NCBI RefSeq assembly: GCF_000969905.1
Contig: NZ_CP009520.1
Coordinates: forward strand, 2,046,001-2,110,000
Direction: 5' to 3'
Source of the DNA: Methanosarcina vacuolata Z-761
GTDB taxonomy: Archaea > Halobacteriota > Methanosarcinia > Methanosarcinales > Methanosarcinaceae
DNA: 64,000 bases
The notes under the pieces were generated by a model that saw nothing but the letters and a program-made list of their open reading frames with translations, was not told the origin of the DNA and did no database searches. The first letter of the stretch is position 1, and every line of letters begins with the position of its first letter. The position numbers and the translations under genes are program-made. Of this stretch, positions 6,723-63,126 are shown piece by piece.

Positions 6723-7046
6723 TTACTTCCAGTACCAGTAGCCAGGAATCCAGTATTTTTCAGAGGTATACCAGAGAGATTTGTGTTTGCTATCCTTGTT
6801 GTGCTTTACTTTTTTATATCCCCAATGACCTTTCATAAAGTATTTTTTCTTGCCATAATGGTTATCGTACTTGTTCTTACTATCGTACTTGTCCTTACTA
6901 TCGTACTTGTTCTTAGCATCGTACTTTTGCTTACTATCGTAATTGTTCTTAACATTGTTCTGAGTCGCACTTACTGCTGCAGCTGTCACTGACAGCACAA
7001 AACAGAGTGCCAGCAAAATACCCAGTATTTTTCTCATTTTCATCAT
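6723..7046 (-). CDS. small secreted Lys/Tyr/Asp-repeat protein
   Basis: A 107-residue protein with a signal peptide: MRKILGILLALCFVLSVTAAAVSA, cleavage expected near residue 28. The mature part begins with a degenerate 6-residue repeat of the type KYDSKN/KYDSKD (about six units), then a Trp/Tyr-rich tail (GHWGYKK, SEKYWIPGYWYWK). It is strongly basic and aromatic with no known domain. It could be a cell-surface or extracellular matrix peptide; the family is unknown to me. Upstream (7158-7190) is a TATA-like run sharing 13 bases with the region upstream of the cysteine-repeat gene at 19693. Confidence 0.7.
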   Translation of the reverse strand: MMKMRKILGILLALCFVLSVTAAAVSATQNNVKNNYDSKQKYDAKNKYDSKDKYDSKNKYDNHYGKKKYFMKGHWGYKKVKHNKDSKHKSLWYTSEKYWIPGYWYWK

Positions 7047-19692: not shown

Positions 19693-20202
19693 TCATGCGC
19701 AATCTTGGTCGCAGATGACTATGCAGTCGGCAGAGAAGTCGTTTGCGAAATCGTCATCGTCACAGTTTTCACATTCAGAACAGTTTTCACATTCGGAACA
19801 GTTTTCACATTCAGAACAGTTTTCACATTCGGAACAGTTTTTACAGCACTCAGCACAGTTTTCACATTCGGAACAGTTTTTACAGCACTCAGCACAGTTT
19901 TCACATTCAGAACAGTTTTTACAGCACTCAGCACAGTTTTCACATTCGGAACAGTTTTTACAGCACTCACCATTGCAACTCTGGCCACAGACATCTGCAC
20001 ATTCGTCACAGCAGTTTCCTTCACACTCTGCGCTGTTACAGTTGCCATTGGATGAGATATATTGATAATTATAATCAGTAGAGTCAGCAGTGGATTTCGT
20101 AGCTGGACATGCCGAAGCTGCAGAAATTCCTAATATCAACAACATTAATACAACAGAAACAGATGCCGTAATTTTCCATATTGACTTTCTATTATGATTC
20201 AT
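19693..20202 (-). CDS. secreted cysteine-repeat protein
   Basis: 169 residues from the ATG at 20200-20202, which has an ideal aggagg 6 bases upstream. Residues ~1-35 are a signal peptide (SVVLMLLILGISAASA). After a variable section with Cys pairs (CEGNCCDECADVCGQSCNGE), four 13-residue repeats ECCKNCSECENCA run in tandem. Then come several six-residue ECENCS units and an acidic tail DDDDFANDF. About a third of the mature protein is Cys. Candidate roles are metal binding (soft or Fe-S-forming metals) or a disulfide-linked surface polymer; the CxxC spacing resembles metallothionein-like and small Fe-S binding repeats. No known family. The repeats are also repeated at DNA level, so copy number may vary. 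Confidence 0.8.
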   Translation of the reverse strand: MNHNRKSIWKITASVSVVLMLLILGISAASACPATKSTADSTDYNYQYISSNGNCNSAECEGNCCDECADVCGQSCNGECCKNCSECENCAECCKNCSECENCAECCKNCSECENCAECCKNCSECENCSECENCSECENCSECENCDDDDFANDFSADCIVICDQDCA

Positions 20203-30233: not shown

Positions 30234-31127
30234 ATGAGAAATATTGTAAAACATGCAATTTTTTTAGTTGGAGCTCTTTTTTTGCTGACATTAAACGCTT
30301 TAGCACTGCCCGATCCTTCAAATGACACTTTCAAACCCGAAAACAATAGTGAAGAACCCATTGGTGTTGACATATGTATAGATTTCGTACCATACAACCA
30401 TGAGGAGTTGAGAAATTATTCCGACATGATTGTAATAGGCACCGTTAAAGAAATACTTCCGTCCAAATGGAATACCATAGATGGGAAACAACCTGATAAA
30501 CCAATTTCTGAACTCTACTTTGAAAATATTATTTACACTGACATCGTTATAAGTGTTGATGAGTACCTGAAAAACCCGCTATCATCCAGAGATGTTATTG
30601 TGAGAGTTACTGGTGGGACAGTTGGAAATGTCAAAATGACTACAGATGCTGATCCAAGCTTCAAAACGGGTGAGAAAGTTTTGATTTACCTGAACAAGGA
30701 CAATAATTCAAATACAAAGGATTTTGGCCCTGAACATTTTACAGTTACAAATTTTTATCGGGGAAAATATACATTAACTGACGATGGAAAAGCTATAACA
30801 CTATATGAAAATACTACTCTTAATGAGTTGCTTCGTACGATTAATAAAACCAAAAATAAGGCAAATGATGCTGGAATATCAAATGATGCTGGAATATCAA
30901 ATGATGCTGGAATATCAAATGATGCTGGAATATCAAATGATGCTGGAATATTAAATGATATCGGAATATTAAATACCGGAATATTAAATGATACGGAAAC
31001 GGCGAGCAAGCAGGAACAAAATTCCAGTTCTACTCAGGAACCAAAAAGTGCTCCTTTCCTGAGCTCTTTCTGGGCGTTTGCAGCAGTGATCGGAGTAATC
31101 ATATATCAAAGAAAGAAAAAACAATAA
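30234..31127 (+). CDS. surface-anchored protein with NDAGIS repeats
   Basis: 297 residues. A signal peptide is visible at the start (FLVGALFLLTLNALALP) and a C-terminal membrane helix with basic tail at the end (FWAFAAVIGVIIYQRKKKQ), a topology typical of archaeal surface proteins. The globular part (~50-200) contains DMIVIGTVKEILPSKW and a TGEKVLIYLNKDN segment and may form a beta-rich domain; I do not know its family. A low-complexity spacer (~210-250) contains five NDAGIS repeats plus decayed copies. Role unknown, outside the cell. Confidence 0.75.
   Translation: MRNIVKHAIFLVGALFLLTLNALALPDPSNDTFKPENNSEEPIGVDICIDFVPYNHEELRNYSDMIVIGTVKEILPSKWNTIDGKQPDKPISELYFENIIYTDIVISVDEYLKNPLSSRDVIVRVTGGTVGNVKMTTDADPSFKTGEKVLIYLNKDNNSNTKDFGPEHFTVTNFYRGKYTLTDDGKAITLYENTTLNELLRTINKTKNKANDAGISNDAGISNDAGISNDAGISNDAGILNDIGILNTGILNDTETASKQEQNSSSTQEPKSAPFLSSFWAFAAVIGVIIYQRKKKQ
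30864..30998 (+). repeat. 18-bp in-frame tandem repeat
   Basis: Five near-perfect copies of aatgatgctggaatatca followed by three decayed ones, all in frame in the surface-protein gene (NDAGIS). They lengthen the spacer between the globular domain and the membrane anchor. Confidence 0.9.
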
Positions 31128-54564: not shown

Positions 54565-55080
54565 TTAACTTTCACTCTTGAAGCTAATTTGGCGACCCTG
54601 TTTTGTTTCACTGCTCGCGCTGGTTTCAGTGTTCGTTCTGGTTTCACTATTCGCGCTGGTTTCACTATTCGCGCTGGTTTCACTATTCGCGCTGGTATTA
54701 GCTTTGCTGGTTTCATTATTCTTGCTGGTTTCGAGAGCCTGGCTGTTTTCGAGAGCCTGACTGTTTTCGAGAGTCTGGCTTGTTCCATGTCCCTCTTGGC
54801 CTCCAAGGTCTAGTTGACCATCGGGGTAACCTTCATCATAACCGTGTATGTAACCTTCGTTATAGCTACTATTCTCACCTAAGCCACCTTTTACATCATA
54901 ATATTTGCCATTGAAAGCAGTCTGATAGCTGTCTCGGTAGCCATCTTCGTAGCCATGCTGGTAGTCGGGAGACCTCATGCCCGACATTCTTACTCCTAGT
55001 ATCAAAGTTAGTATGACAAAGACTGCCAGCAAAACTACACTCACTTTAATCCAGTTTCTATTATTCGATTCGTTTATCAA
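54565..55080 (-). CDS. membrane-anchored repeat-containing small protein
   Basis: 171 residues. An N-terminal membrane anchor (VSVVLLAVFVILTLILGVRM) is followed by a Gly/Tyr-rich segment with repeated YxDGY-type motifs (YQHGYEDGYRDSYQ, YNEGYIHGYDEGYPDG). Then come Ser/Asn/Glu low-complexity repeats (SANSET, about four copies; TLENSQALENSQALE) encoded by an 18-bp DNA repeat. It is probably a secreted, partly disordered surface protein; no known family. The GYxxGY pattern resembles short extracellular spacer repeats. Gene start ATG 55078-55080. Confidence 0.65.
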   Translation of the reverse strand: MINESNNRNWIKVSVVLLAVFVILTLILGVRMSGMRSPDYQHGYEDGYRDSYQTAFNGKYYDVKGGLGENSSYNEGYIHGYDEGYPDGQLDLGGQEGHGTSQTLENSQALENSQALETSKNNETSKANTSANSETSANSETSANSETRTNTETSASSETKQGRQISFKSES

Positions 55081-58829: not shown

Positions 58830-59579
58830 ATGGTCAGAAATGGGGAGTACAAAAGGGAAGCAGGCGAGCAAAATAAAGATCTTTTAACCATCGCTTTCAA
58901 AACCACAATTCCTGTGCTTCTTGGGTACATACCTCTTGGAATGGCTTTTGGGTTTCTTCTTGACGGTGCAGGATATCACTGGATCTATGCTTTTATTATG
59001 AGCCTTTTTGTCTACGCAGGTTCTGGCCAGTTTCTGGCAGTAGCTTTACTTTCTGCCGGCGCAGGACTAACTGAGTTTGCCATAGCCACATTACTTCTGA
59101 ATTTCAGGCATGCTTTTTACGGTTTGTCCCTGCTTGAGAAGTTTTCCGGTATCGGAAAGGTTAAACCTTATCTTATCTTTGCACTAACCGACGAGACATA
59201 TGCTCTCCTGACCACAACAGATGTCCCGCAGGGCAGCTCAAAATCAAAGTTTTACTTTTATATTGCAGCCCTTGACCACCTCTACTGGATCGCAGGTTCA
59301 GTTATGGGAGCTGCACTTGGTTCTGTACTGGATCTTAATCTTGAAGGCATGAGTTTCGTTCTGACCGCGCTATTTGTAGTGTTGACCATAGAGCAATATT
59401 TCAGTTCAGAGGCGCGTTTTCCCTTCATAGCCGCAGTTGGTGCGGGGGCCCTGTCTCTTATTCTGTTCAGCTCTGACAACATGTTGCTTGCTTCAATCAT
59501 TCTTGGGACTCTGATTCTGATTGGCAGGGAAAAGTCAATGCAGAGAGCACAAAGAAAGCAGAAAACACAGGAAACATAG
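58830..59579 (+). CDS. azlC: AzlC-family branched-chain amino-acid exporter subunit, ending in TAG
   Basis: 249 residues to the TAG at 59577-59579. AzlC with AzlD forms an exporter for branched-chain amino acids or analogues. About seven membrane helices are visible, with the family motifs FKTTIPVLLGYIPLGMAFGFLL, YAGSGQFLAVALLSAGAG, LLNFRHAFYGLSLLEKF and LTDETYALLTT. The last helix ends near LILIGREKS. After the TAG the frame stays open for 78 codons (eight perfect ETEKTQ units, then 30 more residues) and ends in TGA overlapping the azlD ATG. Read-through of the amber codon would give a 328-residue form. Normal AzlC proteins end near residue ~240, so the tail is extra. Confidence 0.88.
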   Translation: MVRNGEYKREAGEQNKDLLTIAFKTTIPVLLGYIPLGMAFGFLLDGAGYHWIYAFIMSLFVYAGSGQFLAVALLSAGAGLTEFAIATLLLNFRHAFYGLSLLEKFSGIGKVKPYLIFALTDETYALLTTTDVPQGSSKSKFYFYIAALDHLYWIAGSVMGAALGSVLDLNLEGMSFVLTALFVVLTIEQYFSSEARFPFIAAVGAGALSLILFSSDNMLLASIILGTLILIGREKSMQRAQRKQKTQET

Positions 59580-59723
59580 GAAACGGAGAAAACACAGGAA
59601 ACGGAGAAAACACAGGAAACGGAGAAAACACAGGAAACGGAGAAAACACAGGAAACGGAGAAAACACAGGAAACGGAGAAAACACAGGAAACGGAGAAAA
59701 CACAGGAAACGGAGAAAACACAG
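59580..59723 (+). repeat. eight perfect 18-bp repeats after the azlC TAG
   Basis: Unit gaaacggagaaaacacag, eight exact copies, in frame with azlC and encoding ETEKTQ if the TAG is read through. A degenerate unit upstream contains the TAG itself (gaaacatag in place of gaaacggag), so the stop may have arisen by a G-to-T change within a repeat. Confidence 0.97.
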
Positions 59724-59815
59724 AAAATGCAGGGCATTTCACAAATAAAGAAAGAAATTCGGTTGATTAATACATCCATGCAGTCTGTTGAAGATAAAAT
59801 AAAGGAGGAAAACTG

Positions 59816-60154
59816 ATGCTGAGCGCTCTTCAAATGTTCATTACCATTGCAGTCATAGCGCTTGCAACCTTTGCAACCAGAGCTCTTCCATTCCTGTTTT
59901 TTGGCTCAAGGGAACCCCCTGAAATGCTTGCGGTTATTGAAAAAAACCTGCCTCCTATGATTCTCCTGCTGCTTGTTATCTACTGCTTAAAAGACGTTCA
60001 ATGGCTTACAGCTCCTTACGGGATTCCGGAATTTGTCACCACAGGTGTCGTTGCCGGGCTGCATTTCTGGAAAAGAAATGCCATGCTTAGCATCTTTATA
60101 GGAACAGCGCTTTATATGGTACTCGTGCAGTTCAACGTTTTTTCATTTCTCTGA
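59816..60154 (+). CDS. azlD: AzlD-family transporter subunit
   Basis: 112 residues with four membrane helices (AVIALATFATRALPFLFFG, MILLLLVIYCLKDV, FVTTGVVAGLHFW, LSIFIGTALYMVLVQF), the usual AzlD size. AzlD is the small partner of AzlC in branched-chain amino-acid export. Its start ATG at 59816 overlaps TGA of the azlC read-through frame (TGATG). A strong ribosome-binding site, aaaggagg, lies 7 bases before it, so it can also start independently. Confidence 0.88.
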   Translation: MLSALQMFITIAVIALATFATRALPFLFFGSREPPEMLAVIEKNLPPMILLLLVIYCLKDVQWLTAPYGIPEFVTTGVVAGLHFWKRNAMLSIFIGTALYMVLVQFNVFSFL

Positions 60155-63059: not shown

Positions 63060-63126
63060 GCAAAATCCTGGTCACAGGATTAATCCCATTTACAGGACTA
63101 ATCCCATTTACAGGACTAATCCAGGT
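63060..63126. repeat. 17-bp tandem repeat after htpX
   Basis: Three copies of ggactaatcccatttaca-type units (ggattaatcccatttaca, ggactaatcccatttaca, ggactaatccaggtc) start about 14 bases after the htpX stop. Confidence 0.85.

Follow-up and report, generated by a model that had tools for sequence, protein, structure and literature searches.

In archaea that decode pyrrolysine (Pyl), UAG serves globally as both a stop and a sense codon (PMC2933860). When an amber codon was introduced into uidA, 20-30% of it was read as Pyl in Methanosarcina acetivorans, the PYLIS element is not essential, and Thg1 of the same species carries a Pyl amber that is dispensable (PMC2933860). The absence of a cis element for Pyl decoding has also been described elsewhere (PMC8211752). 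A survey of conserved in-frame ambers, which left out species-specific ones by design, listed the methylamine methyltransferases and a TetR regulator, and not azlC (PMC1914089). A Ribo-seq paper on M. mazei makes no mention of pyrrolysine or readthrough (PMC11456600).

Here we describe an amber codon in azlC of M. vacuolata Z-761, found in a 64,000-nucleotide stretch of the genome (the window). The azlC and azlD genes encode the large and small subunits, respectively, of a branched-chain amino acid exporter. We argue that the amber arose in an ancestral coding tail and is probably tolerated by a cell in which UAG is sometimes a sense codon.

Layout of the azlC-azlD locus

A Pfam scan places the AzlC domain directly 5' of the AzlD domain, as in an exporter pair, and the main body of azlC is 74-94% identical to its orthologues in Methanosarcinaceae. 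The features of the locus are as follows.

58830..59576, + strand: azlC main body, 249 codons (Pfam AzlC PF03591, E 2.3e-42)
58830-59579, + strand: azlC including the TAG
59562..59579, + strand: degenerate first repeat unit, AAAACACAG GAAACATAG, which holds the TAG
59577..59579, + strand: in-frame amber codon TAG (sequence and translation)
59580..59723, + strand: eight perfect 18-nt units, ETEKTQ x8 in the azlC frame (sequence, translation and tandem repeat finder)
59724..59813, + strand: 30-codon unique part that closes the azlC tail, KMQGISQIKKEIRLINTSMQSVEDKIKEEN (homologous to tails of intact azlC in related species)
59804..59808, + strand: GGAGG, Shine-Dalgarno sequence of azlD, within the azlC tail (read from the sequence)
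59814..59816, + strand: TGA closing the readthrough frame, in a TGATG overlap with the azlD ATG (same overlap in relatives)
59816..60154, + strand: azlD (Pfam AzlD PF05437, E 7e-24)

The initial annotation had described a TAG at 59577 followed by 78 open codons up to a TGATG overlap with azlD, and sequence and translation confirm every coordinate: past the TAG the azlC frame runs through 78 sense codons to a TGA whose A is the first base of the azlD ATG (59816).

UAG in the M. vacuolata genome

The genome has the gene set of a Pyl-decoding host, namely pylT (CUA), pylS and, by sequence, pylB, pylC and pylD, all in one cluster. The in-frame UAG of mtmB is a sense codon, and the two mtmB genes of this genome have one in-frame TAG each. 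The complete pyl set together with the TAG in both mtmB genes indicates that UAG is a sense codon in some genes of M. vacuolata, as the initial annotation had held for Methanosarcina in general. TAG also often acts as a stop in this genome: of 287 ORFs in a 400-kb sample, 17 end on it, and the next stop then lies a median of 5 codons away. A comparison of three genomes, each over 400 kb, yielded about 40-55 alignable genes per pair, too small a set for measuring a genome-wide enrichment of amber over TAA or TGA.

Two other in-frame ambers lie outside azlC. About 12 kb past the right end of the window, a GNAT-family acetyltransferase gene (L100:17706-18413, - strand; G000:C2:2121706-2122413) has a single in-frame TAG, at residue 132 of the read-through frame, and is otherwise intact. 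Its close relatives in three other genomes (G029, G023 and G028; 87-92% identity) show no stop in the matched stretch, making it a candidate for a second sporadic amber in the M. vacuolata genome. In G029, a 102-aa frame (L136:12568-12876, + strand; G029:C2:2654568-2654876) ends on TAG, and past it the same frame goes on for 353 codons; the whole resembles an IS66-type transposase with an amber inside it. Ambers in Methanosarcina transposases have been reported (PMC2933860).

The repeat array and the origin of the TAG

The array in the azlC tail has a period of 18, 8.7 copies and a 98% match by tandem repeat finder, and it occurs only once in the whole genome. Its sub-period is 9 nt ([GA]AAAC[AG]CAG and variants), and it can be described as a Lys/Thr/Gln minisatellite. 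Many other short tandem arrays, their period being 18 bp (or 39 bp), are scattered over the window; together with the azlC array they lie at 6863-6951, 19762-19969, 30862-30992, 54605-54784, 59572-59727 and 63074-63122. Because the azlC array is built of 9-nt pieces, changes in repeat number never shift the frame, as had been noted earlier, but frame retention of this kind is automatic and by itself no proof of translation. Openness of the repeat part is likewise automatic, since on either strand the 18-nt unit has several frames free of stops. For openness, the informative part of the tail is only the 30-codon unique stretch, and about 6% of its shuffled versions are open by chance. Nor is the length of the extension exceptional: in the 400-kb sample, 23 of 269 ORFs ending on TAA or TGA extend at least 50 codons past their stop.

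The TAG does lie in a degenerate unit, as the initial annotation had it, but GAG, which was expected at that place, is not favored over CAG. A single C-to-T step separates the 9-mer holding the TAG, GAAACATAG, from GAAACACAG, which occurs in a relative (L002), but two changes separate it from GAAACGGAG; CAG is therefore at least as likely as GAG to be the ancestral codon. Most simply, the TAG would have arisen from CAG by one C-to-T change within the 9-nt-period minisatellite.

The azlC tail in related species

Searching genomes and scanning named genome contigs provided azlC from 21 Methanosarcina species and from further members of the Methanosarcinaceae. The comparison proposed by the initial annotation shows that in 17 of these 21 species azlC is one open frame, free of amber, that passes through a tail of 72-261 nt into azlD at a TGATG or TAATG. 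The uninterrupted frame in so many species shows that the tail is an ancestral coding sequence and the TAG a later, lineage-specific interruption at a place where close relatives have a sense codon. Past the UAG the frame continues as homologous protein sequence, and it is this homology to intact frames, not openness or length, that makes the tail real. The tails differ in length and sequence between species and are poorly conserved. They end in a semi-conserved stretch (QPVEDKIKEEN type), which also carries the ribosome-binding site of azlD. Within Methanosarcina, the long repeat-rich tail is a trait of the M. barkeri-like clade; tails in other Methanosarcinaceae are shorter.

Three other species have ambers in the tail, and all of them carry pylS. 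In L016 (genome G008), a TAG stands after tail codon 14, and the tail then remains in frame and intact for another 21 codons up to TGATG. Residues 185-454 of the G008 PylRS are identical to PDB chain 2q7e, the crystal-structure chain of M. mazei PylRS, and G008 is M. mazei. In L013 (sp. Ant1), the tail has a TAG and a frame change before azlD. In L006 (genome G029), ATAG stands at the site of the window's TAG, with a 1-nt deletion just upstream and a second TAG further along the tail frame, and an early TGA cuts the predicted AzlC short. Except possibly for L006, the amber positions are unrelated among species, and across the azlC orthologues the position is not conserved. The azlC gene tree joins the window's copy (L001) and L006 at 81/88, which would fit common descent of their TAGs, but in genome samples G029 is nearer to G028, which is without the azlC TAG. 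The amber of L006 at the window's place may mean that the TAG is old.

Recurrence of TAG, with no TAA or TGA in the tails, might be taken as proof that UAG is tolerated. This argument fails because TAG makes up 43-62% of one-step nonsense outcomes in the CAG-rich tails; the recurrence of TAG only is therefore not significant, with P from 0.03 to 0.38 according to event count and transition bias.

Constraint on the tail, RNA signals and azlD

Over the last 30 codons, the window compared with L002 and L006 gives dN of about 0.03 and dS of 0.2-0.3. In this part the window's branch (G000) carries 3 synonymous changes and 0-1 nonsynonymous ones, where about 80% nonsynonymous would be expected without constraint (P about 0.02-0.045 for 1 of 4, a post hoc test on a signal of 4-6 substitutions only). 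The pattern is a hint of translation of the tail, now or until recently, but the counts are very small and the TAG could itself be younger than the branch. If the TAG of L006 is the same event as the window's, the TAG is old and the hint of translation becomes stronger.

No PYLIS-like element or RNA structure was found at the TAG: there are no Rfam matches near it, and the 116-nt stretch that surrounds and follows it has a minimum free energy of 0 kcal/mol. An AlphaFold model of the read-through AzlC has a mean pLDDT of 47 and was set aside. Frameshifts in the tails of L006 and L013 point to a dispensable tail. The initial annotation had the stop of the tail couple to azlD, but a dependence of azlD is unsupported; with a strong GGAGG (59804-59808) just 5' of its start, azlD is probably independent of coupling.

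Fate of the azlC amber

The initial annotation offered Pyl readthrough and recent nonsense mutation as alternatives. Both are probably true together, since the tail is ancestral with a lineage-specific TAG and UAG is read as Pyl elsewhere in the genome; what did not hold up is any programmed signal or conservation, there being no RNA element and no conserved amber. The azlC amber is probably nearly neutral, partly read as Pyl and mostly terminating. In this lineage the repeat-rich C-terminal tail of AzlC, which is ancestral and under weak constraint, has gained an amber, most simply by CAG to TAG. At the UAG, release factor and Pyl-tRNA would then be in generic competition without a dedicated signal, yielding mostly AzlC of 249 residues and a minor product of 328 residues with Pyl at position 250, the share of which might be higher under methylamine growth. 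Near-neutrality is expected of a change in a non-essential tail when azlD is served by a ribosome-binding site of its own. The amber is real but probably minor; it adds one more case to the sporadic ambers of Pyl-decoding archaea and is likely to be tolerated noise.

One competing explanation is a simple nonsense mutation, with UAG practically always terminating, so that AzlC is a protein of 249 residues and the downstream frame a recently orphaned relic, open by chance and repeat periodicity. The high variability and weak conservation of the tail fit this explanation, as do the ORFs closed by TAG with short extensions in the 400-kb sample and the lack of any structure or Rfam element near the TAG. 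The frameshifts around the ambers of L006 and L013 are also what would be expected if the tail were simply dying. However, the genome encodes tRNA-Pyl (CUA) and its synthetase, and in a relative the amber of a foreign reporter is read at 20-30% (PMC2933860). Moreover, the window's tail is still in frame with few nonsynonymous changes, and the amber at the same place in L006 suggests that the TAG may be old. On balance, pure termination appears rather unlikely, though it ranks second. An error of sequencing or assembly at the TAG might be suspected, a perfect repeat array being a risk for copy number in assembly, but the TAG sits in a unique degenerate unit at the edge of the array. The assembly is near-complete, in two contigs, and ATAGGAAAC stands at the same place in a related genome (L006). 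We regard such an error as extremely improbable.

At the other extreme, the amber could be a programmed switch, in which methylamine growth leads to UAG readthrough and a charged AzlC tail, termination is coupled to azlD initiation, and export is tuned to nitrogen-rich methylamine metabolism. In its favor, the genome has the Pyl machinery, the tail runs exactly to the azlD overlap, and M. mazei independently shows the same arrangement; were the switch real, M. mazei would have evolved it in azlC independently, with amino-acid export tuned by it. Against this, most orthologues are without the amber, its positions are unrelated apart from L006, there is no cis element, and the Shine-Dalgarno sequence of azlD is strong. 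Frameshifts in two amber-bearing relatives and low tail conservation also argue against a switch, as does the rank of TAG as the commonest one-step nonsense outcome in a CAG-rich tail, which leaves its recurrence without significance. A programmed switch is thus very unlikely, and we give equally little credence to its general form, that in several Methanosarcina the availability of Pyl sets the tail and termination at the azlD start.

Within a single genus, azlC forms a natural series that goes from a sense codon through an amber with an intact tail to one with a broken tail. The series bears on whether UAG readthrough buffers nonsense mutations in Pyl-decoding archaea. It is useful because one genus shows these states and because data already at hand may allow a check of the M. 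mazei case: M. mazei carries an independent azlC amber, and Ribo-seq and peptidomics of its strain Go1 are published.

Comparison with known systems

The window's pair has the same domain content and gene order as AzlC/AzlD (BrnFE-type) exporters, and differs from them in its long repeat-rich tail. With mtmB, mtbB and mttB, azlC shares a UAG inside a coding frame in the same genome (where mtmB was examined). However, in the methyltransferases the position is conserved, the residue is catalytic and readthrough is efficient, whereas the position of the azlC amber is not conserved, and for azlC a catalytic residue or efficient readthrough is at best doubtful. A close parallel is M. acetivorans Thg1 (tRNA-His guanylyltransferase), whose sporadic in-frame amber is read as Pyl (PMC2933860). 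Pyl has been physically observed in Thg1 and is predicted in AzlC, and the azlC amber, unlike that of Thg1, is in a terminal tail where truncation is likely harmless. In both genes the amber is found in one or a few lineages of a Pyl-decoding host, orthologues have a sense codon, and the residue itself is not needed.
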